Shown here: one piece after another, positions 1,173 to 16,728 of the stretch
Layout of the letters: every line of letters starts with the position of its first letter
How positions within the stretch are numbered: position 1 is the stretch's first letter
Assembly (NCBI RefSeq): GCF_001406815.1
Contig: NZ_CVRR01000007.1
Coordinates: forward strand, 1 to 64,000
Direction of reading: 5' to 3'
DNA: 64,000 bases
Origin: Roseburia faecis
GTDB lineage: Bacteria > Bacillota > Clostridia > Lachnospirales > Lachnospiraceae
Notes under the pieces: generated by a model
Databases searched by the model: none
The model's input: the letters and a program-made list of their open reading frames with translations, nothing else
Told to the model about the DNA's origin: nothing
Program-made: the position numbers and the translations under genes

Positions 1173-1245
1173 ACAAAATCTCCTTATCTTTTGTGGCATG
1201 TATTTACTGTTATCATACACACTTTACAGGTAAAAAGAAAGCAGA

Positions 1246-1257
1246 GAACAAATGTTC
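1246..1257. promoter_or_regulatory. LexA (SOS) box of the native uvrB promoter
   Basis: GAACAAATGTTC, flanked by A and T, matches the Gram-positive LexA/DinR pattern GAAC-N4-GTTC. It sits 9 bp upstream of the -35 element of the uvrB promoter and also within reach of the divergent deacetylase promoter. Confidence 0.75.
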
Positions 1258-1266
1258 TAATCAAGA

Positions 1267-1295
1267 TAGACAAAGTCAGATCTTTGTAGTAAAAT
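1267..1295 (+). promoter_or_regulatory. Native uvrB promoter, now driving only a truncated uvrB
   Basis: TAGACA (1267-1272), a 17-bp spacer and TAAAAT (1290-1295). After the island integrated, this promoter reads into the 89-codon uvrB stump and then into the left end of the island; no terminator is evident before 1905. Confidence 0.55.
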
Positions 1296-1383
1296 TAGCA
1301 TATATGTGCAGACTATAAAGATATGGATTTTTTTCATGGAATAAAGCAGATTTTACGATAAAACTGAGAAGGGAGAGGGCATT

Positions 1384-1653
1384 ATGGAGTTCAAATTACA
1401 TGCCCCATATGAGCCAACCGGTGACCAGCCGCAGGCAATTGAAAAATTAGTCAAAGGATTCAAAGAAGGCAACCAGTTTGAAACGCTGCTGGGTGTGACC
1501 GGTTCGGGAAAGACCTTTACGATGGCAAATGTTATTCAGGCACTGAATAAGCCGACGCTGATTATTTCCCACAACAAGACACTGGTGGGGCAGCTGTACG
1601 GAGAAATGAAAGAATTTTTCCCGGAGAATGCCGTCGAGTATTTTGTCTCCTAG
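1384..1653 (+). pseudogene. uvrB: 5' stump of native uvrB, cut by island integration
   Basis: The frame encodes the first 89 residues of UvrB, including the Walker A loop GVTGSGKT, and then meets TAG at 1651. The ribosome site GAGAAGGGAGAGG and the ATG at 1384 look native. From 1417 to 1656 the sequence is almost identical to 14744-14983 of the intact uvrB, with mismatches only at 1533, 1554, 1586, 1647 and 1653. After 1656 homology stops abruptly. The first 11 codons differ clearly in DNA from those at the right copy although the protein is similar (FKLHAPYEP against FKLHSEYKP). The natural reading is that the original gene start was left here while the island provided a new start at 14696. 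A short UvrB peptide without helicase domains 2-4 could be made under SOS but should not function in repair. Confidence 0.92.
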
Positions 1654-1656
1654 TAT
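1417..1656 (+). repeat. Left copy of the uvrB-derived direct repeat flanking the island
   Basis: About 240 bp matching 14744-14983 at 235 of 240 positions. The first 116 bp (1417-1532) are identical and all mismatches lie to the right, so the crossover site is most likely within 1417-1532. Confidence 0.9.
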
Positions 1657-1821
1657 CTTGATATTGATTTATGCACTATATATTGATTGGATAATGCGGA
1701 ATAACACTATATAAAGTAAAATAAACGATAGGTTAAAGGCAAATGGACATGATGGATTGGTTATAACGGTGAACAAAATTCGTCGAAGAAAGTAGTAGAA
1801 TTGATACATGAAAAATATTGA

Positions 1822-1850
1822 TTGAGAAACAGGTGTAAAGCAGTTATAAT
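1822..1850 (+). promoter_or_regulatory. Promoter of the PIN toxin-antitoxin pair
   Basis: TTGAGA (1822-1827), 17-bp spacer, TATAAT (1845-1850), about 55 bp before the antitoxin start. Confidence 0.65.
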
Positions 1851-1904
1851 TAAAGTAGGAAAATAATGATTTGCATAAAATGATAAGGAAAGGCGGTGTA
1901 TCAT

Positions 1905-2174
1905 ATGACTATGTTACAGGAGCAGGCTGTTCAGATGATTCAGGATATGTCCGATGATAATGTAGGCTTTCTGATTGAAGTGATTCAGCGATTAATACCA
2001 AAGAAAACATATACCAGTGTTATTTATCCGTCTCAGAAACCAGATGAAAAAATGCAGGCGTTTAAAGAACTGGTAGCTACCAGAAGTGAAGCAAAAAAAT
2101 ATTTGCCGGATGACTTTGATCCGGATGCAGAGCTGGAAGCAGCAAGAAGGGAAAAATATGGTAGTATTGATTGA
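1905..2174 (+). CDS. Putative antitoxin of a PIN-domain toxin-antitoxin pair
   Basis: Small 89-residue acidic protein encoded directly upstream of, and overlapping by 17 bp with, a PIN-domain gene. The ATG at 1905 is preferred over an upstream GTG because AAGGAAAGGCGG lies at the right distance. The N-terminal part is helical (MLQEQAVQMIQDMSDD) and the C-terminus is charged (DDFDPDAELEAARREKYG), a layout common in antitoxins whose tail wraps the toxin. I do not recognise a named antitoxin family; the call rests mostly on the neighbouring toxin, the overlap and the size. It would be expected to neutralise the PIN nuclease and repress its own promoter. Confidence 0.65.
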   Translation: MTMLQEQAVQMIQDMSDDNVGFLIEVIQRLIPKKTYTSVIYPSQKPDEKMQAFKELVATRSEAKKYLPDDFDPDAELEAARREKYGSID

Positions 2175-2568
2175 TACGAATGTAATTATTGATTTTCTTG
2201 TTGCAAGAGAACCGTTTTACGATTCTGCGTTGCATGTGATGGAGAAATGTGCATCTGGAGAAGCAGAGGGATATATAGCATTTCACTCTTTGCCTAATCT
2301 GTGGTACATTCTCAGAAAAGTCCCAGCAGAGACAAGAAGATCATGGTTAGAAAAGGTCTGCAAGATTCTAAAAGTAGCGTCTGCATCTCAGGAAGCAGTC
2401 ATGAAAGCTATTAAGATGGATAACTTCAAAGATTTTGAAGATTGTTTGCAGGACAGATGTGCCGAGGAGGTTTCGGCAAATTATATAATTACTCGAAATA
2501 CCGCAGATTTTGAGGCTTCTGTAGTGTCAGCTATAGAACCTGATGAATGGCTAAAGAAATTAAATTGA
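2158..2568 (+). CDS. PIN-domain toxin (VapC-like ribonuclease)
   Basis: A 136-residue protein with the PIN fold: VLIDTNVIIDFL at the N-terminus supplies the first catalytic Asp, and DFEDCLQ with ITRNTADF near the C-terminus supplies the later acidic residues. Such proteins are metal-dependent RNases that cut tRNA or rRNA and form type II toxin-antitoxin pairs. The ATG at 2158 lies inside the end of the antitoxin gene with AAGGG just upstream, so translation is probably coupled. It is followed at once by a terminator. The pair sits at the extreme left of the island, where it could stabilise it. Confidence 0.82.
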   Translation: MVVLIDTNVIIDFLVAREPFYDSALHVMEKCASGEAEGYIAFHSLPNLWYILRKVPAETRRSWLEKVCKILKVASASQEAVMKAIKMDNFKDFEDCLQDRCAEEVSANYIITRNTADFEASVVSAIEPDEWLKKLN

Positions 2569-2575
2569 AAGAAAA

Positions 2576-2604
2576 ATCCCTCGGAACATTTCTGAGGGAT
2601 TTTA
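2576..2604. terminator. Bidirectional terminator between the PIN toxin and HEPN genes
   Basis: A stem of ATCCCTC with GAGGGAT around a short loop, with an A-run on the left and TTTT on the right. It serves the plus-strand toxin and the convergent minus-strand gene ending at 2619. Confidence 0.75.
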
Positions 2605-2618
2605 TAAATGTAAGATGT

Positions 2619-3326
2619 TTAATAAGCACCATTACCATAATTCTTTTCTTTATAATTTTGATATTTTGAAGAAGATAGTATTTGATGTTTTTTCGTTTCT
2701 AATGACCAAGATTTTGTTGAATCAACATAATCTTGTAGTTCTGTTATTATTTGATAATAGTCTCTATAATGTGTTCGGTGTGATATAAGTAAATCTAAAA
2801 TACATTGATGGAATTTATCATATATACAAAAGTATTTTTCGATTTTAACAAAATCTAAGTTAGCCATTAGGGCAGTTGTATCGTGATTTACTTTTGTACA
2901 TTCATTATTTAAGCAATAGACCCATTGCCCATGTGCAACTTTGTTTCTTATTTGGCTGGGGTCAATAATATATTCTTGTAGAAGTCTGTGTAATGTTTGT
3001 TTTTTATTTGCAACTTCTCCCAAATTAGTTGTATTAAGTTTATTAAATGCAAGATCGACACATTTTAACCATTTTTGTTCTAAATTACGTTCAGCCATTA
3101 TTTGAATGATTTCTGACTCTGTAAATGCCTTGGGCGTATGAATAAGTTTTAAGAAAGAAGTTTCGACATAAGCAGAATAAAGAAGAGCATACATTTTTGT
3201 CAGAGAAATTAAATCAGGATCTTGTTTTTCACGAATGGCTCTATTAACTAAAGCACAAATTCTTTTTCGCTGTTTTTTTAAATCTCTTAAATTTTCAGTA
3301 CTTGCTGTGAATATTTCTTCTGCCAT
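2619..3326 (-). CDS. HEPN-type protein, possible RNase (unrecognised family)
   Basis: A 235-residue, largely helical, lysine-rich protein. RNKVAH at about residues 127-132 fits the R-x4-H motif that marks the active site of many HEPN RNases found in toxin-antitoxin, abortive-infection and RNA-processing proteins. No other domain is evident and there is no signal peptide or membrane segment. The gene is AT-rich, like the cargo around it. A tRNA-like transcript on the same strand lies only 55 bp upstream (3381-3449) with its own promoter, so this gene may be read from the same RNA. Whether it is a nuclease or merely a HEPN-fold binding protein cannot be told from sequence. Confidence 0.6.
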   Translation of the reverse strand: MAEEIFTASTENLRDLKKQRKRICALVNRAIREKQDPDLISLTKMYALLYSAYVETSFLKLIHTPKAFTESEIIQIMAERNLEQKWLKCVDLAFNKLNTTNLGEVANKKQTLHRLLQEYIIDPSQIRNKVAHGQWVYCLNNECTKVNHDTTALMANLDFVKIEKYFCIYDKFHQCILDLLISHRTHYRDYYQIITELQDYVDSTKSWSLETKKHQILSSSKYQNYKEKNYGNGAY

Positions 3327-3348
3327 AGTGATATATCAGGAATTTCGA

Positions 3349-3388
3349 GATGCTAAAAATCACTAAAGATTTAATGAGCTTTAGCATC
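3349..3388. repeat. Inverted repeat overlapping the 3' end of the tRNA-like sequence
   Basis: GATGCTAAA (3349-3357) and TTTAGCATC (3380-3388) are perfect inverted copies; an inner AAATC/GATTT pair extends the hairpin. The right arm is the acceptor 3' strand of the tRNA-like sequence, so folding this hairpin would compete with the acceptor stem. Confidence 0.7.
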
Positions 3389-3449
3389 CCGGAATTGAAC
3401 CGGGACCTCCCTCCATAAAAGGTGTTCTACCATAATAAACTAATGCTCC
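3381..3449 (-). pseudogene. tRNA-like sequence (degenerate or mimic tRNA) ahead of the HEPN gene
   Basis: Minus-strand sequence with a D-arm (GTTT...GAAC, GG in the loop) and a perfect T-arm (CCCGG, loop TTCAATT, CCGGG). The acceptor strands GGAGCAT and ATGCTAA pair at five positions but mismatch at the first two. The anticodon stem has only about three good pairs, the variable region is short, and no CCA is encoded. At 69 nt it is shorter than usual. It is therefore either a decayed tRNA or a tRNA-shaped RNA with another role. A consensus promoter places the start site at its first base. Confidence 0.5.
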
Positions 3450-3455
3450 GCATTT

Positions 3456-3484
3456 ATAATACTATAAAGAAAATATTTATTCAA
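3456..3484 (-). promoter_or_regulatory. Promoter of the tRNA-like RNA and HEPN gene
   Basis: On the minus strand TTGAAT (3484-3479), a 17-bp spacer and TATTAT (3461-3456). The predicted start is about 7 bases on, at 3449, the first base of the tRNA-like sequence. Confidence 0.6.
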
Positions 3485-3530
3485 GTTAATTGTTTATATA
3501 ATGATAATCTGGGTATTGCTAGGAATACTT

Positions 3531-4052
3531 CTATAGGAAAGGCTGCTTATGTAAAAGTAGTGGATGATTTCCATACCATAATCGGTATGATTGCAGAACA
3601 AATTTAACATGGTCTCTGACGGCATAGAAATTATGCATATCACAGTTATAGAGCATACCATTAGTCAAATCTATCGTGTTTACAAGGATATGAACGTGAA
3701 GATGATTGGTATTTTCATGGACGGAGAAGATAACCTGATACTGTGCGTCCGCAAAGATTTTACATACCTTTTTAGCAATCTGATATGCCTGAAAAGGCGT
3801 AATATCGTATTCATAATATGGATCAAAAGACAAGACAAAATGTCTGAGAGGAATATAATTGCTTTTATGGTATAAGTTTCTGACAATGTAGAACTGTTCA
3901 GTTACTTCCTGAAGTGTTCCTTTTACGAATCCATAGCCACCCCAGTAGTTGGACAGGATGGCTTCAGGACGAAGAATGTATGCAATTTTTGTAGCCATAT
4001 AGTCTTCTGCATACGGATTGATTCCTGATTCTACTTGCTTAAAGATTGCCAT
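3531..4052 (-). CDS. Short MOB relaxase (mobilisation nuclease domain)
   Basis: A 173-residue protein that resembles the nuclease domain of plasmid and ICE relaxases, which nick oriT and carry the transferred strand. HENTNHLHVHILVNT contains the HxH metal-binding signature of MOBP/MOBV-type relaxases, and the N-terminal region has a candidate catalytic Tyr in NPYAEDYM. Most relaxases are over 300 residues with extra C-terminal domains, so this is either a minimal form or a truncated one; the gene ends normally with a stop. It overlaps the MobC-like gene by 22 bp, and a long palindrome (oriT candidate) lies upstream of both. No type IV secretion genes are present, so transfer would need a helper element. 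Confidence 0.75.
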   Translation of the reverse strand: MAIFKQVESGINPYAEDYMATKIAYILRPEAILSNYWGGYGFVKGTLQEVTEQFYIVRNLYHKSNYIPLRHFVLSFDPYYEYDITPFQAYQIAKKVCKIFADAQYQVIFSVHENTNHLHVHILVNTIDLTNGMLYNCDMHNFYAVRDHVKFVLQSYRLWYGNHPLLLHKQPFL

Positions 4053-4339
4053 AATTCAAGAACTCCTTTCTGAATAAGGTTAACAATATCTCTTTGATCT
4101 GGAGGCAGGGTGTCACAGTCGAGCAAATCATTAGTAAGACTTGAAATATCTGCAAGTTGAGGGATTATGATATTTGCCTTATCAATAACAGCTACTGGGT
4201 TATCATGGAGAACAGACTGACGGATATATTCACTGGCTGTTAATCCACTCTTATTAATTCGTTGGGTAAGCAAGATTTCCTCAGCCTTGTTTATTTTAAA
4301 TTTTTTTTGAATGTTTCTAACATCTTTACTTTGATTCAT
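4031..4339 (-). CDS. MobC-like relaxosome accessory protein
   Basis: A 102-residue protein ahead of the relaxase. The stretch KSGLTASEYIRQSVL is typical of the MobC / ribbon-helix-helix relaxosome proteins that bind oriT and help the relaxase open the strands. AGGAGGAATT precedes the ATG. It is translated as the first gene of the mob pair, with its end overlapping the relaxase start. The assignment is by motif style and gene order. Confidence 0.7.
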   Translation of the reverse strand: MNQSKDVRNIQKKFKINKAEEILLTQRINKSGLTASEYIRQSVLHDNPVAVIDKANIIIPQLADISSLTNDLLDCDTLPPDQRDIVNLIQKGVLELWQSLSK

Positions 4340-4384
4340 AAGAATTCCTCCTGATTTTTAAAATATTAGCGTAATCATATCGTT

Positions 4385-4447
4385 GGCAAGAATAGAAAAA
4401 GGGTACACATTCGTTAAATAACGAAGTGCACCGAACTATTCTTTACC
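4385..4447. other. Nested palindrome, candidate origin of transfer (oriT)
   Basis: Three concentric inverted repeats: AAGAATAG (4388-4395) with CTATTCTT (4436-4443); GGTACAC with GTGCACC (one mismatch); and TTCGTTA (4410-4416) with TAACGAA (4419-4425) at the centre. No T-run follows, so it is not a terminator. It lies just upstream of mobC-relaxase, the usual place of oriT. No nic site can be assigned from sequence alone. Confidence 0.55.
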
Positions 4448-4560
4448 AATATGTTAGTAATGTTATTTAAGATTAACATTGATTATGTATGCACAATGGA
4501 GGTCATGTTTGATTAAGAAAGCAACATGATAATAAGAAATAAAGGATTGGAGGATTTAAG

Positions 4561-5259
4561 ATGTTTGAGACATATGAAGACATGGTAACGATAGATGATG
4601 TATGTCAAATGTTGAACATTGGAAAAAACAATGCATACCGTTTGTTAAAGGAAGGAAAGCTTCATGCCTTTAAAATCGGGAGGATTTGGAAAATATCCAG
4701 GCAATCAGTTATCGAATATGTGAAGCCTGCAATTCTTAAGGCTACAATGACGGAGATATGGATCTGCGATGAGTATAACCGGCTGATCTGCCGTCATCCA
4801 AGATCTTACCGTGATTTTCCTCTTTACATTACAGATGACAGTCATATGCCTCCGGAACATCTGTATTACAAAGAGGTAAATGCACATGACGGAGCTTATT
4901 ACAGACGGTGGGCATCTGTCTATGGAGAATCCATGGTAACTCTTATTGACAGGATACTCCGAAGTTCAAAACATGAGGAACAGGCATACAACAGCTGTGC
5001 CGGTGTACTCCATTCCTGTATGTTTGCTGATAATACCTATGCCGATGCGTGCCTTACACGTATCACCGATAAGCACCATACGTATCGTCTGGAGATGAGC
5101 GTATTTTTTTCGCAGAATACATCATATAATCGGGAAATACAAATATCTCCAGTTCCGATTTCTGGCTCTGCTATTCCGGTAATGATTCCTTTTGAATATC
5201 CACAAATTGGATACTTGAATTTAACAATATCTCCGAATTTATACCGTTCATGGATGTGA
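4561..5259 (+). pseudogene. Chimeric frame: excisionase-like HTH domain fused to an IS21 IstA C-terminal fragment
   Basis: Residues 1 to about 55 form a helix-turn-helix of the excisionase/MerR-like type (MVTIDDVCQMLNIGKNNAYR, then KIGRIWKISRQSVIEYV). From about residue 62 to 165 the frame matches the style of the C-terminal part of IS21 transposase IstA (DDSHMPPEH, RRWASVYG, HEEQAYNSC). The last 55 residues are antisense to another decayed gene and look like noise. A good RBS (GGAGG) precedes the ATG, so the HTH part may still be made. Xis-type proteins direct excision of such elements; here the IS21 debris appears to have landed just behind it. I treat the whole as a remnant with a possibly active HTH head. 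Confidence 0.65.
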
Positions 5260-5400
5260 TCGTAATCTGAAAGCTCATACCGATATTCCCAGCTGTTTTC
5301 CCAGGTCATATCTCCATAGATTTCAAATCTTCTTTTGATATCACGGCATTATTTGCAGAAATCTCTAAAATCCCCTGTAATATCAATGTTTTTCAGGCCT
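5075..5400 (-). pseudogene. Decayed minus-strand gene of unknown function
   Basis: On the minus strand the frame reads NIDITGDFRDFCK, a TAA, then CRDIKRRFEIYGD, and continues through YKFGDIVKFKYPICGYSKG to about 5075, where IS21-derived sequence begins. The single stop can be explained by one base change (TAT to TAA). A short ATG frame (5309) after the stop has a weak RBS. The beta-rich composition suggests a small accessory protein of mobile elements; I cannot name the family. It is truncated at the C-terminus by the IstA fragment. Confidence 0.45.
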
Positions 5401-5476
5401 GAAGGTAGTGCTACTACACCACTACTACACCAGTGAGTCTCGATGTGACAAAAATTTTGAAATCGAGGTCAAGCTT

Positions 5477-6113: not shown

Positions 6114-6128
6114 CAAAGCATAGAACAA

Positions 6129-6170
6129 GGCCGGATGCTGCTTCGCAAGAAGTGGTATCCGGCTTTTCTT
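6129..6170 (+). terminator. Terminator after the tnpV gene pair
   Basis: GCCGGAT (6130-6136) pairs with ATCCGGC (6157-6163), with an inner TTC/GAA stem, followed by TTTTCTTGATTTTTT. From here to 6408 I see only AT-rich sequence with no gene. Confidence 0.75.
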
Positions 6171-6466: not shown

Positions 6467-6472
6467 ATCTTC

Positions 6473-7774
6473 TTGATAGAGGGAAAGAATGTGGAGTTCA
6501 AGTGTGAATATATGGACGACATTAAGTACGCTGTTATTGCATTTGCAAATACAAATGGTGGGAAGCTTTATATCGGCATCAATGATGACGGAACAATATA
6601 CGGTGTTGATAATGTAGATGATACTATGCTTCGCCTAACTAATATGATTCGAGATATTGTGCGTCCAGACGTGACTATGTTCACTGATTACTCTGTTGAG
6701 AAAATGGAACATAAAGATGTTATTGTTTTAACTGTGCAACGTGGCACAGCTCGTCCTTACTATTTGTATTCGAAAGGTATTCGCCCGGAGGGCGTATATG
6801 TACGTCAAGGTGCTTCTTCAGTTCCAGCTTCTAAAACAGCCATTTTGAATATGATTCGAGAAACCAGCGGAGATTGCTATGAAGATGCACGTTCCATTAA
6901 TCAGCAGCTGACATTTGAAAAAGCGAAAGAATATTTTGCAAAGAAAAAGGTGGAGTTTGGCGATGCTCAGAAGCGCACACTGAATATAATCGGTGAAGAT
7001 GGCACTTACACAAATCTTGGAATGTTGCTGTCTGATCAGTGCACGCATACCATCAAAATGGCCGTCTTTGAGGGAAGTAAGAAAAGTGTTTTTAAGGATC
7101 GCAAGGAACTGACAGGTTCTTTGCTGGAACAGCTTGAGGAGGCGTACACCTATATCGACCAATTCAATCACACTCGTGCAGAATTTAAAGGATTAGATCG
7201 AATTGACAAACGAGATTATCCTGCCGAAGCACTACGTGAAGCTCTTTTAAATGCACTTGTGCATCGAGACTATTCCGTGAGCGGTTCCACCCTTATTAGT
7301 ATTTTTGATGGACGCATAGAATTCGTAACCATTGGTGGATTGGTCCGTGGGATTTCTTATGATGATATAATGCTGGGTGTATCTGCTTTGCGTAACAAAA
7401 AATTAGCAAATGTTTTTTATCGTCTTAAGTTAATTGAAGCTTATGGCACCGGCATTATGAAAATTAATGAATGCTATGCGGATCAAGCGGTAAAGCCTAT
7501 TATTGAAGTGAGCAACAATGCATTTAAGATCACCTTGCCTAACTTAAATTATAATCAAGAAATGCACGAAGTAGGGATTAAAAATGAGCGCATGAAAATG
7601 GTTCTCTCATTGTTTGGGAAAAAGGATAGCATTGTAAGAAAAGATGTAGATGATCTGCTGGGCGTATCTCAGTCTACATCCAGTATTCTTCTACGTGAAA
7701 TGTTGGATAACGGACTGATTGTAAAAGTTGGTAGCGGCAGAAATCTCAAATATAGATTAAAGATAAGGTCTTGA
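6473..7774 (+). CDS. AlbA_2 (Schlafen-like) / HATPase_c_4 DNA-binding regulator, first gene of the defence operon
   Basis: A 433-residue protein with three parts. The N-terminal AlbA_2/divergent-AAA domain (FKCEYMDDIKYAVIAFANTN, GGKLYIGINDDGTIYG) occupies about residues 6-110. A RecG-C-terminal / HATPase_c_4 region follows (EALLNALVHRDYS about residues 257-270, AYGTGIMKI about 322). A winged helix ends it (RKDVDDLLGVSQSTSS). Such proteins are common as regulators and as parts of defence loci. The TTG start is chosen because AAAGGAGG stands 7 bp before it and the N-terminus then matches the family. It heads five closely spaced genes, so it may control the operon or sense infection; both are inferences. 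Confidence 0.8.
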   Translation: MIEGKNVEFKCEYMDDIKYAVIAFANTNGGKLYIGINDDGTIYGVDNVDDTMLRLTNMIRDIVRPDVTMFTDYSVEKMEHKDVIVLTVQRGTARPYYLYSKGIRPEGVYVRQGASSVPASKTAILNMIRETSGDCYEDARSINQQLTFEKAKEYFAKKKVEFGDAQKRTLNIIGEDGTYTNLGMLLSDQCTHTIKMAVFEGSKKSVFKDRKELTGSLLEQLEEAYTYIDQFNHTRAEFKGLDRIDKRDYPAEALREALLNALVHRDYSVSGSTLISIFDGRIEFVTIGGLVRGISYDDIMLGVSALRNKKLANVFYRLKLIEAYGTGIMKINECYADQAVKPIIEVSNNAFKITLPNLNYNQEMHEVGIKNERMKMVLSLFGKKDSIVRKDVDDLLGVSQSTSSILLREMLDNGLIVKVGSGRNLKYRLKIRS

Positions 7775-7791
7775 TTGTGAGGGAAATTAAT

Positions 7792-8304
7792 ATGACTCGT
7801 TTTGAAACGATAATGGCAGTTTTAAATTTAGTTGCAATTGTAGGAATTCCAATCTTAGCAGTTGTTATAGGTCAATACCTGCAAAACCGTGCAGAAAAAC
7901 GGAAAGATAAAATGCAAATTTTTCGCACCCTTATGACATCACGAATTTACGGTTGGACTGTAGACAGTGTTCATGCACTCAATCTTATTGATGTGGTTTT
8001 TGTAAAAGATACTGCTGTCAGAGGCGCTTGGAAAAACCTTTTAGATGCATATTCATCTTCGGAAGAATCTGAATTAATGAAGCAAAAACGACAAAATTTA
8101 AACTATAAGTTGCTGGAAGAAATGGCGAAGAACCTCGGCTATAAAGACAGAATCACTTGGGAAACTATTCAGAATCCCTATGTACCCAAAGGAATGATCG
8201 ACCAGTGGGAAGCTCAGGCAAGATCTCAACAAGCATACAATGATTTGCTTCATAGTATGACCAGTATCATGCCGAAAAAAGAAAGCAAAGAGGTAACGAA
8301 ATGA
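7792..8304 (+). CDS. Single-membrane-segment protein (DUF6680-like) in the defence operon
   Basis: A 170-residue protein with one N-terminal membrane segment (AVLNLVAIVGIPILAVVIG, about residues 9-28) and a charged helical cytoplasmic domain containing KMQIFRTLMTSRIYGW. The ATG at 7792 has GAGGGAAA just upstream, and a weaker TTG lies at 7771. The stop overlaps the ATG of the methyltransferase gene (ATGA), so translation is coupled. I recognise it only as resembling DUF6680; no activity is known. A membrane-anchored partner between a regulator and Mod is not part of classical type III restriction systems. Confidence 0.6.
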   Translation: MTRFETIMAVLNLVAIVGIPILAVVIGQYLQNRAEKRKDKMQIFRTLMTSRIYGWTVDSVHALNLIDVVFVKDTAVRGAWKNLLDAYSSSEESELMKQKRQNLNYKLLEEMAKNLGYKDRITWETIQNPYVPKGMIDQWEAQARSQQAYNDLLHSMTSIMPKKESKEVTK

Positions 8305-9938
8305 GTACTAATGTTTCTAAGAAAAAACGTGAGGATTTACTAAGTAAAATTGGACAAATACGAACATTCATTGCCTCTGCGCCACAAGACACGAATACAG
8401 GAAATCTTCTTTCTTATTTATCTGAGTTAGAAAAAGATATTAATGGAAAAAAATACGGCCTCATTTTTGAGGAGCACAAAGAGCATATTGATGAGGTTCT
8501 TGAATCAAATACACCAGTATTGAATGAAGATAAAGATCTTTTCATCAACAATGGTGAAATAATTAACTTTTTAATCGAGGGAGATAATTTAGCATCGCTT
8601 CAAATGTTAGAGAAAACTCATAGAGGAAAAGTTGATTTGATTTACATCGATCCCCCATATAATACATTAAAAGACGGATTCACATATTCGGATACTCTGG
8701 TTGATAAGAACGATACCTTTCGGCATTCAAAGTGGTTATCGTTTATGAGACGTCGACTTGTGATAGCCCAAAAACTTTTATCATCCAATGGGACAATATT
8801 CATATCTATTGATGACAATGAAGTTGCAGCATTAAGGGTGCTTTGTGATGAACTATTTGGATATCAGAATTTTGTGGCTAACATCATATGGGAAAAGAAA
8901 TTTTCTCCACAAAATGATGCAAAATGGCTCTCTGATAGCCATGATCATATCCTCCTGTATGCAAAGAACAAAGAAATCTGGCACCCGAAATTGTTGAAAC
9001 GTACAGTTGAAATGGATAAACGATATACAAACCCAGATAATGATCCTCGGGGGCCATGGACATCAAGTGATTTTACAGTCAAAACAGCATCTGAAGCATA
9101 TATGTACGATATTGTTACACCTTCAGGAAGAGTTGTACGTCCCACATCAAGCAGGAGCTGGGCTACATCAGAAGAGAACTATTTAGCGTTAAGAGCTGAT
9201 AATCGGATTTGGTTCGGCGCAAAAGGAAATAATGTGCCAAGGATTAAAACTTTTTTGTCAGAGGTGCAAAAAGGGACTGTATGTAAAACAATATGGTATA
9301 GAACAGAAGTTGGAGATACGCAGGAGGGCACTCGTGATTTAAAATCAGTCTTTGGAAAAGCGGGTATGTTTACTAACCCTAAGCCGATTAGGCTCATCAA
9401 TAGAATTTTAGATATTGCGTCCCAAAATAACAGCATCGTACTCGACTTTTTTGCAGGAAGCGGCACTACAGGTCATGCACTACTCAAGTATAATGCAGAG
9501 CATGCTGATAGCAAGCGACAATTTATTCTGTGTACCAATAATGAAAACGATATTTGTAGAAACGTTACGTATGAAAGAATCAAACGAGTTATTGCTAACG
9601 AAGGGTACAATGCCAGTTTGAAATATTTCCGTGTTGGATATATTTCAATCACTGACAGAATGTATTATGAGTATGCAGATGAACTTCTGCTTCATGTTCG
9701 TGAACTTGTGGAGCTTGAAAATGGAATTAACTTCACAGGAAATGCCGAAATTGCCATTATATTGAGCGAAGAAGAGCTGGAAGGATTTATGGAAAATGCG
9801 GTTAATCTCTCTCAGTGTTGTAAGCTGTATATGGCCCATGACATTTTACTTGATGCAGAGCAAGAGCAAAAGCTAAGAGATCAAAAGATTTCCGTGAATA
9901 TCATTCCTGACTATTATTATAAAGAACTGGAGGGCTAA
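8301..9938 (+). CDS. mod: Type III DNA methyltransferase (Mod, beta class)
   Basis: A 545-residue N6-adenine methyltransferase. Motif IV DPPYNT is at about residues 116-121 and motif I DFFAGSGTTGHALL at about 380, the order of the beta class; the variable stretch between them should recognise the target. AdoMet is the methyl donor. It lies 2 bp before the Res gene, as in type III R-M operons, and overlaps the upstream gene by 4 bp. The C-terminus (after about residue 440) is acidic and probably contacts Res. The recognition site cannot be predicted here. Confidence 0.92.
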   Translation: MSTNVSKKKREDLLSKIGQIRTFIASAPQDTNTGNLLSYLSELEKDINGKKYGLIFEEHKEHIDEVLESNTPVLNEDKDLFINNGEIINFLIEGDNLASLQMLEKTHRGKVDLIYIDPPYNTLKDGFTYSDTLVDKNDTFRHSKWLSFMRRRLVIAQKLLSSNGTIFISIDDNEVAALRVLCDELFGYQNFVANIIWEKKFSPQNDAKWLSDSHDHILLYAKNKEIWHPKLLKRTVEMDKRYTNPDNDPRGPWTSSDFTVKTASEAYMYDIVTPSGRVVRPTSSRSWATSEENYLALRADNRIWFGAKGNNVPRIKTFLSEVQKGTVCKTIWYRTEVGDTQEGTRDLKSVFGKAGMFTNPKPIRLINRILDIASQNNSIVLDFFAGSGTTGHALLKYNAEHADSKRQFILCTNNENDICRNVTYERIKRVIANEGYNASLKYFRVGYISITDRMYYEYADELLLHVRELVELENGINFTGNAEIAIILSEEELEGFMENAVNLSQCCKLYMAHDILLDAEQEQKLRDQKISVNIIPDYYYKELEG

Positions 9939-9940
9939 AC

Positions 9941-12136
9941 ATGGAAATTACTCTTGCAAATTTTCAGTTGAAGGCTATCTTTGATTTGATGGAAGCTATG
10001 GAAGGGTTACACAATGAGATTGTTTTAAAGAGCTGCACAGGTAGCGGAAAAACAATTATTCTGACTCATTTTATAGACGAATATATTAAAAGCAATAGTA
10101 GAACTGTTTTCATCTGGCTGACCCCTGGGAAGGGCGGTTTAGAAGAACAGAGTAAAAACAAGATGGATAAATATATCCACGGCAGCCACACTAAATTATT
10201 GCATGATATTATGGCAAGCGGATTTGAAGAAAACGATGTCTGCTTTATCAATTGGGAAAAACTTACTAAGAAAGGCAATACTGCCTTGAGGGATAGTGAA
10301 CGAACCAATTTTGTTGAGTATATTAAAAACGCATTGGATGCTGGCCTTTCATTCAAAGTCATTGTGGATGAGTCCCATCAAAACGATACCATCAAGGCCG
10401 ATGATATTATTGAGTTGTTTCATCCAGACAAAATAATCAGATGCTCTGCTACACCTAAAGGATATAAAAACGCAACTGTTATTGACATTCCAGAAGAAGA
10501 TGTTATTTCCGAAGGCTTGATTAAGAAACTTCTTGTCATCAACGAAAACTTCGAGCAGAATATCAGCGTTGACGATCAGATTTCTTACTTAATCCAAAAA
10601 GCAATTGCTAAGCAACAGGAGATTCATGCAGAATTTTTAAGACGTAATGTCAATGTAAACCCTCTGATTGTGGTCCAGATTCCCAATAAGTCTGATGCAT
10701 TGCTGGATCGAATTGAAGAATACTTTGAATCTCAGGGAATCACTTATGAGAATAGTCAACTGGCAGTTTGGCTTTCTGATAAAAAGCAGAATTTAGAAGG
10801 AATTTCCGACCCAGATGCCACACCAATAGCGGTAATTATAAAGCAAGCTGTTGCAACGGGATGGGATTGTCCGAGAGCTCATATCTTAGTCAAACTCCGT
10901 GACAACATGAGTGAAACCTTTGAAATTCAGACCATTGGACGTATTCGCCGTATGCCAGAGGCAAAGCATTACGATTGTGATTTGTTGGATTGTTGCTATC
11001 TTTTTACGCTGGATGAAAAATTTACGGAAAGCGTCAAGCTGAGTCTTGGTAAAGACGCTTTGGAGGCATACCGGGTATTCCTGAAACCGGAGCACCGTTC
11101 CTTTACCTTAATTAGCGAGTACAAAACGAATGTCCCGTTCCCTCGTGATGCCAAACTGGCCCTAAAAGTAATCAGCAAGTTCTTTGAAAAGAAATATCAT
11201 GCCACGAGTGATATGGATAAAAACAAGACATTGCTTGAAGTCCATGGATATTCGTTTGCTGAAGATATTATTGACTACACCAAATCTGGTGAGGTTTCCA
11301 TTTTATCTAAAGAGAATATTTCTGGGTTGAATGATGTTGCAATTCATGAACCTTTGAATACTCACAAGCATGGTAAGGCATATCATCATTGCGTAGCAGA
11401 AATTGGATTTAAAATAAACCTTGATTACAGCAGTATCAATGCAATTATACGAAAGTTATTTCTGCAGGGTCTGCACTGTGATTGTAAAATCTTAAAAATT
11501 GACACTCGTGCACTGTATGCTTTTGTTATCAATAATAAGCATCGTTTGATTGAAGATGTAAGAAGTGCAATGTCCGATGAAGCACTTCAACTTAGTTTGG
11601 ATATACCGAAAGTCACGGAAAAGCCGATTGGTTTCCCGCAGGAAACACTATTTACATATGATATAACCGGAAAATCTCAGAGTGAAATGACAAAGAACGT
11701 ATATAAGCGTTACTTGGCTTCTGCAGAAAGGCGTTCTCTTCCAGAGAAACTTTTCGAACGCCATTGCCAAAATAGTTCTAAAGTTTCGTGGTTTTATAAA
11801 AACGGAGATAAGGGCATCGAATATTTCTCCATTGTGTATGTGGACAACTTCGGAAAGCAAAAGTCTTTTTATCCAGACTATGTTGTTGGAGCGACCGATG
11901 GTTCAGTTTGGATTATTGAGACAAAGGGTGGCTTTACAAAGTCTGGAGATAGTGAAGACATTGATAAATACACGGCTAAAAAATTTGGCGTATTAAAAAA
12001 ATATGTAGATCGCTACAATCTTAAAGGTGGAATTGTACGCCAAGATAAGCAAAGTGGGGAGCTTTGTATTTGTAGTGACCAGTATTCTGATGACATTGGA
12101 AGCGACTGCTGGTCACTGCTTTCTGACGTGCTTTAA
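9941..12136 (+). CDS. res: Type III restriction subunit (Res): DEAD-like translocase with C-terminal nuclease
   Basis: A 731-residue superfamily 2 ATPase. Walker A CTGSGKT is near residue 30, DESH about 143, SATPKG about 168, and a helicase motif VI (QTIGRIRRM) about 330. The C-terminal end carries a PD-(D/E)xK nuclease pattern (YPDYVVG, then WIIETKGG about 655-663). With Mod it should cut unmodified DNA between inverted sites. It is shorter than many Res proteins (often 900 or more residues) but all motifs are present. The gene begins 2 bp after Mod. Confidence 0.9.
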   Translation: MEITLANFQLKAIFDLMEAMEGLHNEIVLKSCTGSGKTIILTHFIDEYIKSNSRTVFIWLTPGKGGLEEQSKNKMDKYIHGSHTKLLHDIMASGFEENDVCFINWEKLTKKGNTALRDSERTNFVEYIKNALDAGLSFKVIVDESHQNDTIKADDIIELFHPDKIIRCSATPKGYKNATVIDIPEEDVISEGLIKKLLVINENFEQNISVDDQISYLIQKAIAKQQEIHAEFLRRNVNVNPLIVVQIPNKSDALLDRIEEYFESQGITYENSQLAVWLSDKKQNLEGISDPDATPIAVIIKQAVATGWDCPRAHILVKLRDNMSETFEIQTIGRIRRMPEAKHYDCDLLDCCYLFTLDEKFTESVKLSLGKDALEAYRVFLKPEHRSFTLISEYKTNVPFPRDAKLALKVISKFFEKKYHATSDMDKNKTLLEVHGYSFAEDIIDYTKSGEVSILSKENISGLNDVAIHEPLNTHKHGKAYHHCVAEIGFKINLDYSSINAIIRKLFLQGLHCDCKILKIDTRALYAFVINNKHRLIEDVRSAMSDEALQLSLDIPKVTEKPIGFPQETLFTYDITGKSQSEMTKNVYKRYLASAERRSLPEKLFERHCQNSSKVSWFYKNGDKGIEYFSIVYVDNFGKQKSFYPDYVVGATDGSVWIIETKGGFTKSGDSEDIDKYTAKKFGVLKKYVDRYNLKGGIVRQDKQSGELCICSDQYSDDIGSDCWSLLSDVL

Positions 12137-12147
12137 GGAGGATAGAA

Positions 12148-13065
12148 ATGGGCACAGAGACCAAAAAGAAAAATGTTCCTATTTATTTTTACTATTTAAC
12201 CATTGCAAAGCAAAAAAATGCCGAAGATGGTTCCAAGTACAGCATGGATCAAATTGTTGCATCTTTTTCGGCAATGCTGCAGCATGTCCTTTCCCAAAGC
12301 TTGAGTGATAGAAAACGGAATCTGACAACTTCAGAGAAAATTGTATGGCTGGATTCTGTTAAAGAATTGACACCGGGCAATTATGATATTATTTTCAAAT
12401 CTGCCAAATATAATCATGTACGGAAAGAAATTGATACTGAAACGATGGAGGAACTTGGACTTCGGAAACGCCAGCAGGATGGTGACGAAGAAAAAACTCA
12501 TCTTTGTATTCGGTTAGCGAAAGGACAACATCGGTTTTTAGCTGTACATGAAAGCAATCACTATGGCATTTCGATAAAGTGTATTATTGATTATCTTAAT
12601 GCAAAATTCAAGCAATACAGTGAGGAATGTAACGACAATTATTTATATACACTTATACATGAGATAATGCCAGGAGATGATTTTTTGACATCTCTCAAGA
12701 AAGCTAAAACTACATCTTTTATTACGTTGACCGTTAGCAAAGATGATCTGAATGATGACTTTATGAGATTTGCAAATCGAACTGATATCAATGATGAAGT
12801 GCAAATTCTTATAAAAAAACCGAGAAAGGCCAAGAAATTCCCGGAAAATTTGATAAAAGCATATTATGAGGATATGCAAAGCAATAACAAAATTAAGAAA
12901 ATAGCAGTCAAGGGAACAAATGAATCCGGGACATTTGAAGCTGCCACAGACTTGATTAAGATGAAACACTATCTTACAGTGGAAGCCGAAGGATTAACTA
13001 ACGAGGTGTGTAGTTCTGAGTTCTTCAATAAGGCTCAAACTTTTATAGATGAAACGAGGCGGTGA
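12148..13065 (+). CDS. RexA-like soluble protein at the end of the restriction operon
   Basis: A 305-residue protein without membrane segments, 11 bp after Res with its own AAGGAGG. Its C-terminal half has the same order of elements as the phage lambda exclusion protein RexA: a beta stretch (TTSFITLTVS), a helix, a second beta stretch followed by a basic segment (VQILIKKPRKAKKFPENLIK), then KKIAVKG, NESGTF and a final helical part (KHYLTVEAEGL). This is a by-eye resemblance, not an alignment. RexA is a DNA-binding sensor that acts with the membrane protein RexB; here too the next gene encodes a four-segment membrane protein. Another possibility is a KwaB-like role in a Kiwa-type pair. The overlap with the next gene argues that the two work together. 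Confidence 0.55.
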   Translation: MGTETKKKNVPIYFYYLTIAKQKNAEDGSKYSMDQIVASFSAMLQHVLSQSLSDRKRNLTTSEKIVWLDSVKELTPGNYDIIFKSAKYNHVRKEIDTETMEELGLRKRQQDGDEEKTHLCIRLAKGQHRFLAVHESNHYGISIKCIIDYLNAKFKQYSEECNDNYLYTLIHEIMPGDDFLTSLKKAKTTSFITLTVSKDDLNDDFMRFANRTDINDEVQILIKKPRKAKKFPENLIKAYYEDMQSNNKIKKIAVKGTNESGTFEAATDLIKMKHYLTVEAEGLTNEVCSSEFFNKAQTFIDETRR

Positions 13066-13067
13066 TA

Positions 13068-13604
13068 ATGAAGTCAATTCTTTTTGTCCCAGTTAAAGAC
13101 TATATAAAATCCAGAAAAAAACTGTATGTCAAATTTATATTCCCAATGGTGGTTGCAACAACAGCTTTGGCAATTACTCTTTTCTTTAATTTTGGCGATG
13201 GTGAAAAGCTCAATGCAGTTTTTTCTGAATTTATTAGCACTCAAATAAATATTATTGCCATTTTAATATCGTTCTCTATTGCGATTATTACGATACTAGT
13301 TTCTGCAGATAATCATAATATACAGGAACTTAAAAACACATTGTCGAATGAGAAACACTATCATTCAGTAAACGGAAAGCAACTATCATTATTCCAGATT
13401 TTATTATCTAATATAGCATATAATATTATTTGTGAAACGGTTTATCTGATTTTCTTGATTGCTGTTGCTCTGACCAAATCAATTTTCCCGCTTCAATCAT
13501 TGAAGTATGTTTCGGCAATCTGTATTTTCGTCATACTTCATATTCTTCTTGTACTGCTTGAGTCCGTTGCACAAATGTACCTCACTTTTTGGGATAAAAA
13601 ATAA
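13068..13604 (+). CDS. Four-segment membrane protein, RexB- or KwaA-like effector
   Basis: A 178-residue protein with four predicted membrane segments: about residues 22-42 (FPMVVATTALAITLFF), 58-80 (NIIAILISFSIAIITILV), 118-142 (AYNIICETVYLIFLIAVA) and 147-170 (YVSAICIFVILHILLVLL). The loop between segments 2 and 3 is charged. GAGGCGG precedes the ATG at 13068; a GTG at 13062 overlapping the upstream stop is an alternative. Size and topology match lambda RexB (four segments, membrane-depolarising) and also KwaA of the Kiwa system. As last gene of the operon, after a soluble RexA-like protein, a role as membrane effector of abortive infection is plausible but inferred. Confidence 0.55.
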   Translation: MKSILFVPVKDYIKSRKKLYVKFIFPMVVATTALAITLFFNFGDGEKLNAVFSEFISTQINIIAILISFSIAIITILVSADNHNIQELKNTLSNEKHYHSVNGKQLSLFQILLSNIAYNIICETVYLIFLIAVALTKSIFPLQSLKYVSAICIFVILHILLVLLESVAQMYLTFWDKK

Positions 13605-13627
13605 ATTCATATTTCGCATAAATTGAA

Positions 13628-14464
13628 TTGTGCTGGGCATGTAAGAATCATACCGGGTGTAAGCTTATAGCGGTTAATCCGGCAGAAGGTGTTAATCTGC
13701 CTAAAACAGTAAAAAGTAAGCCATATCATGTACAGACTATTGATGCTCAGAAAACATTGACCTTAGAACAAATTTATGTGCTGCTACAAGCGAGTAAGAA
13801 TACGCCGATTCATATGCAGATACTGTTTAATGTGCTTCTGGGGCTTAGAAGACAGGAAATTAATGGTCTGAAGTACTCAGATGTGGATTATATCAACCGG
13901 ACAATATCTGTTGAAAGACAGTTAGGTAAAGAACTGAACAGAGAACCATATGCACCTAATGACGGAGGCACTAAGAAGGAGCTTCAGCTGAAGACATTTT
14001 CCAGTAAACGTGTTATTCCGCTTCTAGATTTGGTATTTGAAGCAATCATTGAAGAACGTAAACAATATGAAAAGAATCGTCGGCGTAGAGGAAAATACTT
14101 TTTCGATGGAGACTACATCTGCTGTTCAACTTATGGAAAACCGAGAAGTAAGGATTTTCACTGGAAACACTACAAACAGTTATTGCAGGAGACCGGACTT
14201 CCTGATATTCGGTGGCATGATCTGAGAAGTACATATTGCACTCTGTTGTTAAAGAATAATTTTTCTCCTAAGGCAGTATCCAAGTTGATGGGACATGCAA
14301 GAGAGTTGATAACCATGGATGTATATGGAGATAATGGAAATATTATAGCTGAGGAGATTCCACCGGAATTGCTTTTTTATATGGAAGAAGTATTACCGGA
14401 AAAGAAGAAGGACAATACAGAAAATGTTCTGGATACGATGATAAATGTAGAAAAATTTTTATAG
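13628..14464 (+). pseudogene. int: Tyrosine recombinase (integrase) lacking its N-terminal domains
   Basis: The 278-residue frame holds the complete catalytic domain: GLRRQEI (Arg), WHDLRSTY (His-x-x-Arg), LMGHA (His) and MDVYGD (nucleophile Tyr). It starts inside the linker before that domain (VNPAEGVNLPK), so the arm-binding domain and nearly all of the core-binding domain, roughly 110-130 residues in related Tn916/ICE integrases, are missing. No convincing RBS or start codon precedes it, and the frame begins only about 25 bp after the defence operon. The loss therefore probably occurred when the operon was acquired, or by a later deletion. It lies next to the right end of the island, the usual integrase position. 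Without the N-terminal part excision should fail. Confidence 0.85.
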
Positions 14465-14475
14465 AACTAATGTTC
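14464..14475. promoter_or_regulatory. Island-borne LexA (SOS) box upstream of the reconstituted uvrB
   Basis: GAACTAATGTTC matches GAAC-N4-GTTC and begins on the last base of the integrase stop codon. It stands 8 bp upstream of the -35 element, almost the same geometry as the native box (9 bp). Confidence 0.75.
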
Positions 14476-14483
14476 GCTTCGCA

Positions 14484-14512
14484 TATACAATTCCATATTT
14501 CCATGATATAAT
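14484..14512 (+). promoter_or_regulatory. Island-borne promoter of uvrB-uvrA
   Basis: TATACA (14484-14489), 17-bp spacer, TATAAT (14507-14512). The -35 is weak but the -10 is perfect. The leader of about 180 nt contains AATTCGTCGA and its inverted copy (14594-14646). Confidence 0.55.
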
Positions 14513-14584
14513 ATCTCTTACATTTGAGTGTTAATTCGTCCACGTCAGTTTTACTACTTTTTATAAGTCTATAAAATGTCAGGT

Positions 14585-14647
14585 GGTGAACAGAATTCGT
14601 CGAGAGGCATATTTGCGCAAAATCAGAGAATGTGCTTCGACGAATTT
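14585..14647. repeat. Inverted pair of AATTCGTCGA sites at the right end of the island
   Basis: GAATTCGTCGA (direct) and CTTCGACGAATTT (inverted, 14635-14647). The 19 bases at 14585-14603 recur with one mismatch at 1768-1786 near the left end, and the inverted 13-mer is an exact reverse complement of 1776-1788. This is the arrangement of integrase or excisionase arm sites. Confidence 0.6.
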
Positions 14648-14695
14648 CTGCCTGATAGACGAACTTTTTTGATATAAAAACCAGGAGGTGTTTTT

Positions 14696-16696
14696 GTGCA
14701 GAATTCACAACAAATCTTCAAACTTCATTCCGAATACAAACCGACCGGTGACCAGCCGCAGGCAATTGAAAAATTAGTCAAAGGATTCAAAGAAGGCAAC
14801 CAGTTTGAAACGCTGCTGGGTGTGACCGGTTCGGGAAAGACCTTTACGATGGCAAATGTCATTCAGGCACTGAATAAGCCAACGCTGATTATTTCCCACA
14901 ACAAGACACTGGCGGGGCAGCTGTACGGAGAAATGAAAGAATTTTTCCCGGAGAATGCCGTCGAGTATTTTGTTTCCTACTATGATTATTATCAGCCGGA
15001 AGCGTATGTGCCGCAGTCGGACACTTATATTGCGAAAGATTCTGCGGTCAATGATGAAATTGATAAGCTGCGCCTTTCTGCCACGGCAGCACTGGCGGAG
15101 CGAAAAGATGTCATCATCGTGGCATCTGTCTCCTGTATCTATGGCATTGGTAGTCCGGATGACTATATGAACATGATGGTTTCCCTGCGTCCCGGAATGG
15201 AGATTGACCGTGATGATGTGATCAAGGGACTCATTGACATGCAGTACACGCGCAACGAGATGGATTTTAAGCGTGGTACGTTCCGGGTGCATGGCGATGT
15301 ACTGGAGATTTTTCCGGCGAATAATACCGACACGGCGATCCGTGTGGAGTTTTTCGGAGATGAGATCGACCGGATTACGGAGGTGGATGTGCTTACCGGA
15401 GAGATCAAATGTATATTAAAGCATGCGGCTGTGTTTCCGGCGTCCCATTATGTGGTGCCACAGGAAAAAATGAACGCAGCGTGTGACCGTATCGAGGCAG
15501 AACTGGAAGAGAGGGTCAGGTATTTTAAGGGGGAGGATAAGCTGCTGGAAGCGCAGCGTATCGCGGAGCGCACGAATTTTGATATTGAAATGATGAAGGA
15601 AACCGGATTTTGTAGCGGCATCGAAAACTATTCCCGCCATCTGGCAGGACGTGCCGAGGGAGAAATGCCGGAGACACTGATGGATTATTTTCCGGACGAC
15701 TTTCTGATTATTGTGGATGAGTCCCACATTACGATTCCGCAGGTGCGTGGAATGTATGCAGGGGATCGCTCAAGGAAGCAGACACTGGTGGACTATGGAT
15801 TCCGTCTGCCGTCCGCACTCGATAACCGCCCGCTTAATTTTGAAGAGTTTGAGAGCAAGATTGATCAGATGCTGTTTGTATCAGCTACGCCGAATGTCTA
15901 TGAGAACGAGCATGAATTGCTGCGTGTGGAGCAGATTATCCGTCCGACCGGACTTCTGGACCCGGAGATTTCCGTGCGACCGGTTGAGGGGCAGATCGAT
16001 GATCTGATCGGGGAAGTTAACAAAGAGACGAAAAATCACCATAAAGTGCTGATCACGACACTGACCAAGCGAATGGCGGAGGATCTGACACAGTATATGA
16101 GCGAACTTGGCATCCGTGTAAAATATCTGCACTCGGATATTGATACCTTAGAGCGTGCAGAGATTATCCGTGACCTGCGTCTGGACGTGTTTGATGTACT
16201 TGTCGGTATCAACCTGCTGCGGGAGGGACTGGATATTCCGGAGATTACGCTTGTGGCGATTCTGGATGCGGATAAGGAAGGATTCCTTCGTTCCGAGACT
16301 TCACTGATCCAGACCATCGGACGTGCGGCAAGAAACAGTGAGGGACATGTAATCATGTATGCGGATAAGATCACGGATTCCATGCGTGTGGCCATTGATG
16401 AGACGGAGCGCCGCCGCAAGCTTCAGCAGGCATACAATGAGGAACATGGAATCACACCGAAGACCATCCAGAAATCGGTGCGTGATCTGATTGCAATCTC
16501 CAAAAAAGTGGCAGCAGAGGAGATGGAATTTGATAAAGATCCGGAATCCATGAGCCGCAGGGAATTAGAAAAACTGATCGGGGACATCCAGAAGAAGATG
16601 AAGAAAGCTGCCGCAGAACTCAATTTTGAGGCGGCGGCAGAGTATCGTGATAAGATGGTGTCACTGAAAAATATGCTGCGTGATATTGAAAAATAA
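14696..16696 (+). CDS. uvrB: Excinuclease subunit UvrB, reconstituted with an island-derived 5' end
   Basis: A full-length 666-residue UvrB, the damage-verifying helicase-like subunit of nucleotide excision repair. Seen: Walker A GVTGSGKT (about residue 42), the beta-hairpin region with tyrosines ([12 protein letters not shown]), DESH, SATPNV, IGRAARN and a C-terminal UVR domain (EFDKDPES to EAAAEYRD) that binds UvrC. Translation starts at GTG 14696 behind CCAGGAGGTG. The first codons ([16 protein letters not shown]) come from the island side; from 14744 the sequence repeats the native copy at 1417-1656. The protein should be fully functional. uvrA follows after 32 bp, so the whole uvrBA operon now depends on the island promoter and LexA box. 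Confidence 0.97.
14744..14983 (+). repeat. Right copy of the uvrB-derived direct repeat
   Basis: Matches 1417-1656 with five mismatches, all in its right half. Continuity of the uvrB frame beyond it shows that the right half is host sequence. Confidence 0.9.
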
Positions 16697-16728
16697 AAAC
16701 AGGGACGTTACCGACAGGAGGAAATAAA

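Follow-up and report, generated by a model that had tools for sequence, protein, structure and literature searches.

The locus and its two uvrB copies

We analysed a stretch of 64,000 nucleotides from Roseburia faecis (contig NZ_CVRR01000007.1, positions 1 to 64,000; the window in what follows), in which an island of about 13.3 kb sits between two copies of the DNA-repair gene uvrB (Table 1). The left copy is closed by an in-frame TAG at 1651-1653. The right copy is complete, with 666 residues from a GTG start, and its frame aligns with UvrB models from end to end. The initial annotation of this DNA had described a truncated native uvrB with a LexA box upstream, and both are where it placed them; the uvrB-derived repeat that it saw flanking the island is also present (1390-1656 and 14717-14983, spacing 13,327), but it measures 267 bp at 95% identity and not 240 bp. 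The whole genome holds a single full uvrB and a single uvrB fragment, the one at 1384-1653; two more weak matches (23-24% identity) turned out to be other genes. When the left and right flanks are joined in silico at the shared core, an open frame of 661 residues results, which is the predicted empty site. The open reading frame (ORF) 3' of the intact gene was read by eye as uvrA.

The island thus occupies a fixed insertion point towards the 5' end of a conserved protein gene. The original 5' end of uvrB lies at the far junction, as it does for elements that replace 5' ends, and the replacement 5' coding end is in frame and accompanied by a promoter, recognised by its consensus. Under regulated gene integrity the target would be inactive while occupied; the UvrB frame here, judged from its reading frame, is instead complete.

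Table 1. Features of the island and its junctions in the window
Feature	Positions	Strand
Left-copy LexA-type box, GAACAAATGTTC	1246..1257	+
Left-copy promoter, TAGACA - 17 bp - TAAAAT, 9 bp past the box	1267..1295	+
Truncated uvrB 5' copy, to about codon 94 and then TAG; attL side (left attachment site)	1384..1653	+
Left copy of the recombination core, TATTTTGTCTCCTA	1639..1652	+
Left-end putative arm site, GTGAACAAAATTCGTCGAA, 124 nt inside codon 93	1769..1787	+
Two-gene unit of a small ORF, resembling an antitoxin only in its position, and a gene for a PIN_3-domain protein	1896..2568	+
Mobilisation genes or remnants: 173-residue protein with MobA/VirD2-type relaxase nuclease domain, and NikA-like protein	3531..4339	-
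HTH_17 / excisionase-family DNA-binding protein	4561..5259	+
AlbA_2 (Schlafen-type) protein and DUF6680 protein	6473..8304	+
Type III restriction-modification genes mod and res, island cargo	8301..12136	+
Two cargo ORFs, the first weakly matching PADLOC PDC-M53A, the second without a match	12148..13604	+
Tyrosine recombinase of the uvrB-adjacent family, reduced to its C-terminal catalytic half, in which the R, HxxR, H and Y motifs are found	13628..14464	+
Island LexA-type box, GAACTAATGTTC, sharing one base with the end of the recombinase stop codon	14464..14475	+
Island promoter, TATACA - 17 bp - extended -10 TGaTATAAT, 8 bp past the box	14484..14512	+
Right-end putative arm site, direct, GTGAACAGAATTCGTCGAG	14586..14604	+
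Right-end putative arm site, inverted, TTCGACGAAT	14636..14645	+
Intact chimeric uvrB	14696..16696	+
Codons 1-16 of the intact uvrB, from its GTG start; island-derived	14696..14743	+
Codons 17-92, 3/228 mismatches to the left copy; homogenisation (gene-conversion-like) tract	14744..14971	+
Right copy of the core, TATTTTGTTTCCTA, at which host sequence resumes	14966..14979	+

A recombinase family adjacent to uvrB

The gene that ends the island directly before the intact uvrB encodes a tyrosine recombinase, whose R, HxxR, H and Y motifs we take to be catalytic. An alignment of three uvrB-adjacent recombinases served as the query for relatives, and the best 80 of the 149 found were analysed. Loci L059, L165 and L167 did not enter the analysis. 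The record titles name Lachnospiraceae for 37 of the 80, the others giving genus names or wider groups. In 73 of these 80 loci a uvrB start follows on the same strand within 2.5 kb downstream, and four of the remaining seven reach a contig edge within 0.53 kb. At L119 uvrB lies 4.5 kb beyond the recombinase, with boxes and arm sites present; at L132 there is no uvrB, and the sole box, one base off, stands about 1.1 kb past the recombinase. At L098 (2334) a family recombinase has a LexA-type box after it, and 10 kb of sequence there contains no uvrB. With this query a tandem second recombinase directly upstream was seen at 26 of the 80 loci; the query misses at least the one of G037.

Both full-length family members tested contain Arm-DNA-bind, SAM-like and catalytic domains. 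In Acetatifactor muris DSM 23669 and Schaedlerella arabinosiphila DSM 106076 the recombinase frames measure about 440 residues. The recombinase of the window lacks the arm-binding and core-binding domains, and with these N-terminal domains lost the island is probably no longer self-mobile and probably fixed; the element looks decayed. In L037 and in the window (13628) the N-terminal domains of the recombinase are missing up to almost the same point, with other ORFs just before. At L036 (G059) an ORF of the group II intron reverse transcriptase type, as read by eye, splits an apparent recombinase before a truncated uvrB that itself carries an element-type start and a LexA-type box.

uvrB as an insertion hotspot

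The initial annotation had proposed a search for other islands at the same uvrB site, and such a site is in recurrent use. Within the genus, 11 of 60 genomes, the window's included, have a uvrB 5' copy that is cut short at codon 92-99 (the copy of G002 runs off a contig). Loci were retrieved for 30 matches, and uvrB in the other genomes of the genus is known from rows of the match table. The breakpoints of the truncated copies align at the same codons, and the sequence beyond them falls into several types. Among 23 genomes that bear the recombinase, the truncated copy is found in 17 and missing in six, and in 11 it lies upstream of the full uvrB on the same strand and contig. Where there is one truncated copy, its distance to the full gene ranges from 32 to 104 kb (G061 32, G062 38, G079 39, G082 65, G066 66, G069 104 and G070 104 kb). 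At least two truncated copies on one contig and strand are present in five of the 23 (G060, G063, G072, G076 and G077), which we read as repeated insertion at the same site. A scan of the family gave at least two N-terminal UvrB matches in 24 of 200 genomes (window included), by match counts only.

Two further left-end configurations were noticed. At L035 and L046 the truncated uvrB is followed, after about 70 bp, by what appears by eye to be a SecA C-terminal fragment; the start of this left end is also present in L039 and L042, and secA lies upstream of uvrB in several genomes. At L153 / L134 (G077) the truncated uvrB leader has apparently lost the recombinase end and the box by deletion.

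The exchange point between element and host

To locate where element sequence gives way to host sequence we compared 64 loci with a full uvrB (L037 being re-anchored for this purpose) and found 33 pairs with more than 96% identity over codons 8-92 and less than 90% from codon 100 on. Summed over these pairs, the mismatches are 15, 10, 1, 0 and 0 at codons 88 to 92 and 18 at codon 93, a codon used by neither selection criterion; the four pairs that were displayed are identical through codon 92. A mirror-image pair, L079/L101, has a nearly identical 3' part and a different 5' part, which is the pattern expected for like hosts with different elements. Since pairs in different hosts switch at codons 89-93, the elements bring the start of the gene through about codon 92. 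Host sequence resumes at GTnTCCTAyTAyGAT, which presumably encodes the UvrB beta-hairpin.

The initial annotation had attributed only the first 16 codons to the island. This holds for the window, where the two copies differ at 9 of 27 bases in codons 8-16 and at 3 of 228 in codons 17-92, but not for the family, whose exchange lies at codons 89-93. Codon 16 as the family exchange point is rejected because the pairs switch at codon 93 and because left and right copies are diverged throughout, by 9-28% over codons 17-92, in 17 of 20 comparisons (21 less G072b, a self-comparison; three used copies on different contigs, and left/right pairs from tandem arrays may come from more than one element). 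The other near-identical cases over codons 17-92 are L117 and G077. The simplest reading of the window's sequence is that codons 17-92 would have been homogenised between the two copies after insertion.

For pairs of 75-97% identity the median ratio of nonsynonymous to synonymous substitution rates (dN/dS) is 0.063 in element-borne codons 8-92 (400 pairs), compared with 0.041 in uvrB of the genus (233 pairs) and 0.053 in the 3' part (161 pairs), so that the 5' segments look to be under purifying selection.

LexA-type boxes and promoter geometry

Both uvrB copies of the window stand behind a LexA-type box, and the initial annotation's distances of 9 bp (left) and 8 bp (right) from box to -35 element agree with our measurements, the spacer being 17 bp in both. 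These two are the only exact matches to GAACN4GTTC in the 64 kb. The recA gene of the same genome has GAACATAGGTTC and its lexA has two GAACN4GTTT boxes, one base off, and the motif thus fits the LexA operator of this host: the island box is a putative operator of the type common to the host's recA and lexA, placed at a promoter.

We then considered the interval between recombinase and uvrB in 75 cases (73 loci, the window and L037), each interval starting 60 bases before the recombinase stop. An exact box is present in 58 of the 75, where dinucleotide shuffles lead one to expect 0.54. When the leaders are grouped by shared 8-mers, 31 groups result, 19 of which include at least one leader with the exact box; the number rises to 23 when one-base-off boxes are counted as well. 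The position of the promoter relative to the box is also regular. When distances are counted from the box (exact or GTTT), the best promoter is found 8-11 or 19-20 bp past it, with a 17-bp spacer and an extended -10, in 63 of 64 boxed leaders, and random anchors in the same leaders give this geometry in 112 of 3,200 cases; the larger distance is about one helical turn beyond the smaller.

Native leaders were represented by 17 element-free uvrB loci of the genus, picked by eye with duplicate loci skipped. An exact box is found in 12 and an exact or GTTT box in 13, and 9 of these 13 have a gap of 8-10 bp and a 17-bp spacer, the extended -10 not always being present. The initial annotation had allowed for the GTG start and the leader of the 14464 type being the ancestral start of uvrB. 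This arrangement was not seen among the 17, which have 14 ATG and three GTG starts and none of which contains the direct arm motif of the elements. In G033 (L053 / L166) a leader of the element type with the box GAACTAATGTTC stands directly before uvrB without an element, and the neighbours of uvrB there are, by eye, secA and a PIN-type pair. This leader, between secA and uvrB, looks like a remnant that has become the sole promoter of uvrB.

In two hand-picked classes of leaders (17 and 12 members) the bases of the box are invariant, and at the other positions 15% and 6% of pairwise comparisons show a difference. The classes comprise 17 of the 18 members of two similarity groups and 12 of the 15 of a third; the member left out of the former, L134, is boxless, apparently through a deletion in a truncated copy.

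Putative arm sites and the leader RNA

Between the promoter and the ribosome site, the direct motif GTGA(A/C)(C/T)nnnATTCGTnnnn occurs in 66 of the 75 leaders and the inverted motif nnnnACGAAT in 74. In 53 of the 64 leaders with both motifs, the four variable bases of one complement those of the other exactly; counted as distinct arm pairs, 6 of 15 match, against a shuffled mean of 0.87 and a maximum of 5. The same direct motif is present at the opposite end of the element, 123-126 nt inside codon 93, at 17 of 31 left ends, compared with 22 of 1,900 random windows of 300 nt. From this arrangement we read the direct and inverted motifs as putative arm sites of the recombinase.

An alternative is control through a hairpin in the leader RNA. 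The 185-nt leader (14516-14700 of the window) has a strong predicted fold, which none of 200 shuffles equalled (z -2.97). An Rfam search of positions 1-17000 gave no family above its threshold, and the spacings between direct and inverted motifs cluster near 40, 50, 61 and 72 bp, which by eye looks phased to the DNA helix. This phasing leads us to favour protein sites over control by the leader RNA.

A probable rebuilding of uvrB by the element, and the alternatives

Taken over the family, the anatomy supports the proposal of the initial annotation that the element carries an SOS-type uvrB start and that insertion leaves a complete, LexA-boxed uvrB. We consider it highly probable that the elements of this family bring a LexA-boxed promoter and about 92 uvrB codons and so rebuild uvrB on insertion, a reading that draws on the insertion hotspot, the chimeric gene, the linked recombinase, the geometry of box and promoter, the exchange point, the fragment at the far end and the repeated insertions. 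In this scheme the island would trace back to integrative elements that form a family in Lachnospiraceae and related Clostridia, and whose tyrosine recombinase (often the second of a tandem two) would recombine a core at uvrB codons 89-93, presumably using this core together with the arm sites. At the right end of such an element the recombinase stop is followed by the LexA box and the extended -10 promoter, then by the putative arm sites, the ribosome site and about 92 uvrB codons. Insertion would sever the front end of the host uvrB, left behind as the far-side fragment, and the front end of the element would join in frame, keeping a full UvrB under a LexA-boxed promoter. LexA would be expected to bind the box, making uvrB damage-inducible from the island promoter, and excision would rejoin uvrB at TATTTTGT and so may restore the native gene. 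Selection against losing SOS-controlled repair could be what maintains the box, with a possible benefit to the host.

Several observations weigh against this account. By number alone the two boxes of the window are near chance (0.95 in shuffles, with 22 of 100 shuffles reaching two), and as this count is not significant by itself it is position and recurrence that carry weight. Of the 75 intervals, 17 are without an exact box (seven have one that is one base off, ten have neither), as are 12 of the 31 leader groups, and the loci are related, which means that 75 intervals are not 75 independent events. In the two leader classes, columns outside the box are often invariant as well (154 of 246 and 201 of 266); the invariance of the box is only modestly unusual and therefore no more than supportive. 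Arm motifs are missing from 14 of the 31 left ends. Finally, a full-length relative of the recombinase, searched against the window's own genome, found no N-terminal recombinase part there.

The alternative that survives best is passive capture, in which a host uvrB 5' region was picked up once, box included, and SOS control was not selected. The coding part is plainly host-derived, the geometry of native leaders is similar, and the ten element leaders without any recognisable box would be natural under it. Against it are the recurrence of the exact box over more than half of the leader groups, the phased geometry in all but one of the boxed leaders, and a box that stays invariant where other positions vary in the hand-picked classes; none of these points tests selection directly. 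We regard passive capture as a doubtful explanation.

The box could also serve the element rather than uvrB, with relief from LexA under SOS triggering excision or transfer and uvrB being incidental. The promoter does read through the putative arm sites. However, the box follows the recombinase stop codon (at L121, L122 and the window its start falls within the recombinase gene, at most 15 bases from that gene's end), and the next gene is uvrB. Exact boxes number 57 in 30 kb of leader sequence and 13 in 1,252 kb elsewhere, about 180-fold rarer, and in the complete elements of G061, G062 and G079 exact boxes are confined to the two uvrB copies, where the one-base-off boxes also lie except for one in G061. 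A box that works for the element is on this evidence quite unlikely. A related idea combines the two functions: as an SOS-type uvrB promoter inside the element end transcribes through the putative arm sites, the element may sense host damage by way of the gene that it rebuilt. Damage could then raise UvrB and at the same time change how the recombinase occupies the element end, tuning whether the element stays or leaves. This we put forward as speculation and think unlikely to be right.

Duplication by homologous recombination or an assembly artefact, in place of site-specific insertion, would fit the near identity of the window's copies over codons 17-92 and is rejected as extremely improbable, since the same breakpoint recurs in many genomes (11 with the full gene on a single contig), the pairs switch at codon 93, a recombinase is adjacent, matched arm motifs stand at both ends and most left/right pairs are well diverged.

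Comparison with known elements

Bivalent tyrosine recombinases are known from elements of the lambda and Tn916 type. The uvrB family is like them in the domains of its two full-length members and in having arm-like sites at both ends; it differs in where the right arm sites are placed, which is in the leader of a host gene, past the uvrB coding segment and for the most part some 320-410 bp away from the core. Phage-like islands in mutL switch the gene off while they occupy it. Here too mobile DNA sits at the 5' end of a repair gene, but uvrB is rebuilt where mutL is switched off.

The closest parallels are elements in dusA, islands of which are described in the accessible part of PMC4482086. 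One of them, IMEVchUSA3 in E. coli dusA, changes the first 35 residues, and dusA expression is then below that of element-free cells; regulatory mimicry is not mentioned in the portion of PMC8409611 that we could consult. The available text of PMC10111431 states that attP, the attachment site of the element, usually carries the replacement sequence, and treats regulated gene integrity as a general idea. As far as these partial sources go, dusA and uvrB elements have in common integrase-driven insertion at the 5' end, a new promoter and N-terminus, and the original 5' end kept on the far side, whereas the uvrB elements target a DNA-repair gene, replace about 92 codons, and have a host regulator's site in the new promoter. 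The integrative and conjugative elements (ICEs) of the SXT/R391 group at prfC likewise have a 5'-end target and supply a new promoter and N-terminus, according to the citation of Hochhut and Waldor 1999 in PMC8409611. As cited there, they resemble the uvrB elements in these respects and differ in target and in host phylum. We know of no SOS-boxed replacement end among the prfC elements.

With replacement of a 5' end and promoter known for dusA and prfC, the kind of element is not new. A literature search for uvrB and integration found no uvrB-targeting element, with partial coverage, such that an earlier report may exist. UvrB was encountered only as cargo of an ICE sitting in a tRNA gene, in the passages of PMC7466150 covered, and PMC12884075 has no occurrence of uvrB or Lachnospir. 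Within the literature searched, what appears to be new is the uvrB target and a replacement end that keeps the host operator and promoter spacing, and we did not find an earlier description of this recombinase and attachment-site system of Lachnospiraceae and related Clostridia.

Other contents and distribution of the island

The genes listed in Table 1 include a short relaxase-domain protein and a NikA-like protein, either mobilisation genes or what is left of them. Cargo varies between elements, and the family is therefore defined by its right end and recombinase. Ten proteins from one 38-kb element were tested against domain models: one each matched ParA-type ATPases, a TrwB-type coupling-protein domain, DUF932 and an AAA ATPase, one was the first recombinase, one had a sub-threshold ParB match and four were without a match. 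ARAGORN called a tRNA-His inside the island of the window (3381-3464, minus strand); its ATG anticodon is, we believe, unusual, and the gene may be degenerate.

When plasmids were searched with the island, matches came from just two Klebsiella records, where they are annotated as uvrB, and a phage search with the window's recombinase gave matches in 572 records, all below 60% identity. Relatives of Int2 at E<=1e-70 occur in 2 of 398 genomes of the phylum, one being that of the window; the other, G658, has tandem recombinases, and the 13 kb searched there held no uvrB match, exact box or direct arm motif.

Implications

Known elements that target 5' ends supply a working promoter, and the uvrB family appears to return regulation as well, in the form of an SOS-type box with host-like promoter spacing before a repair gene. 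It thereby becomes testable whether selection acts on mobile DNA to keep intact the control circuit of a gene in which it sits. For the hosts, the hotspot means that the first 92 or so codons of UvrB, including the GVTGSGKT motif that we take to be its nucleotide-binding site, are exchanged recurrently between them, and that elements can gather in tandem at uvrB.

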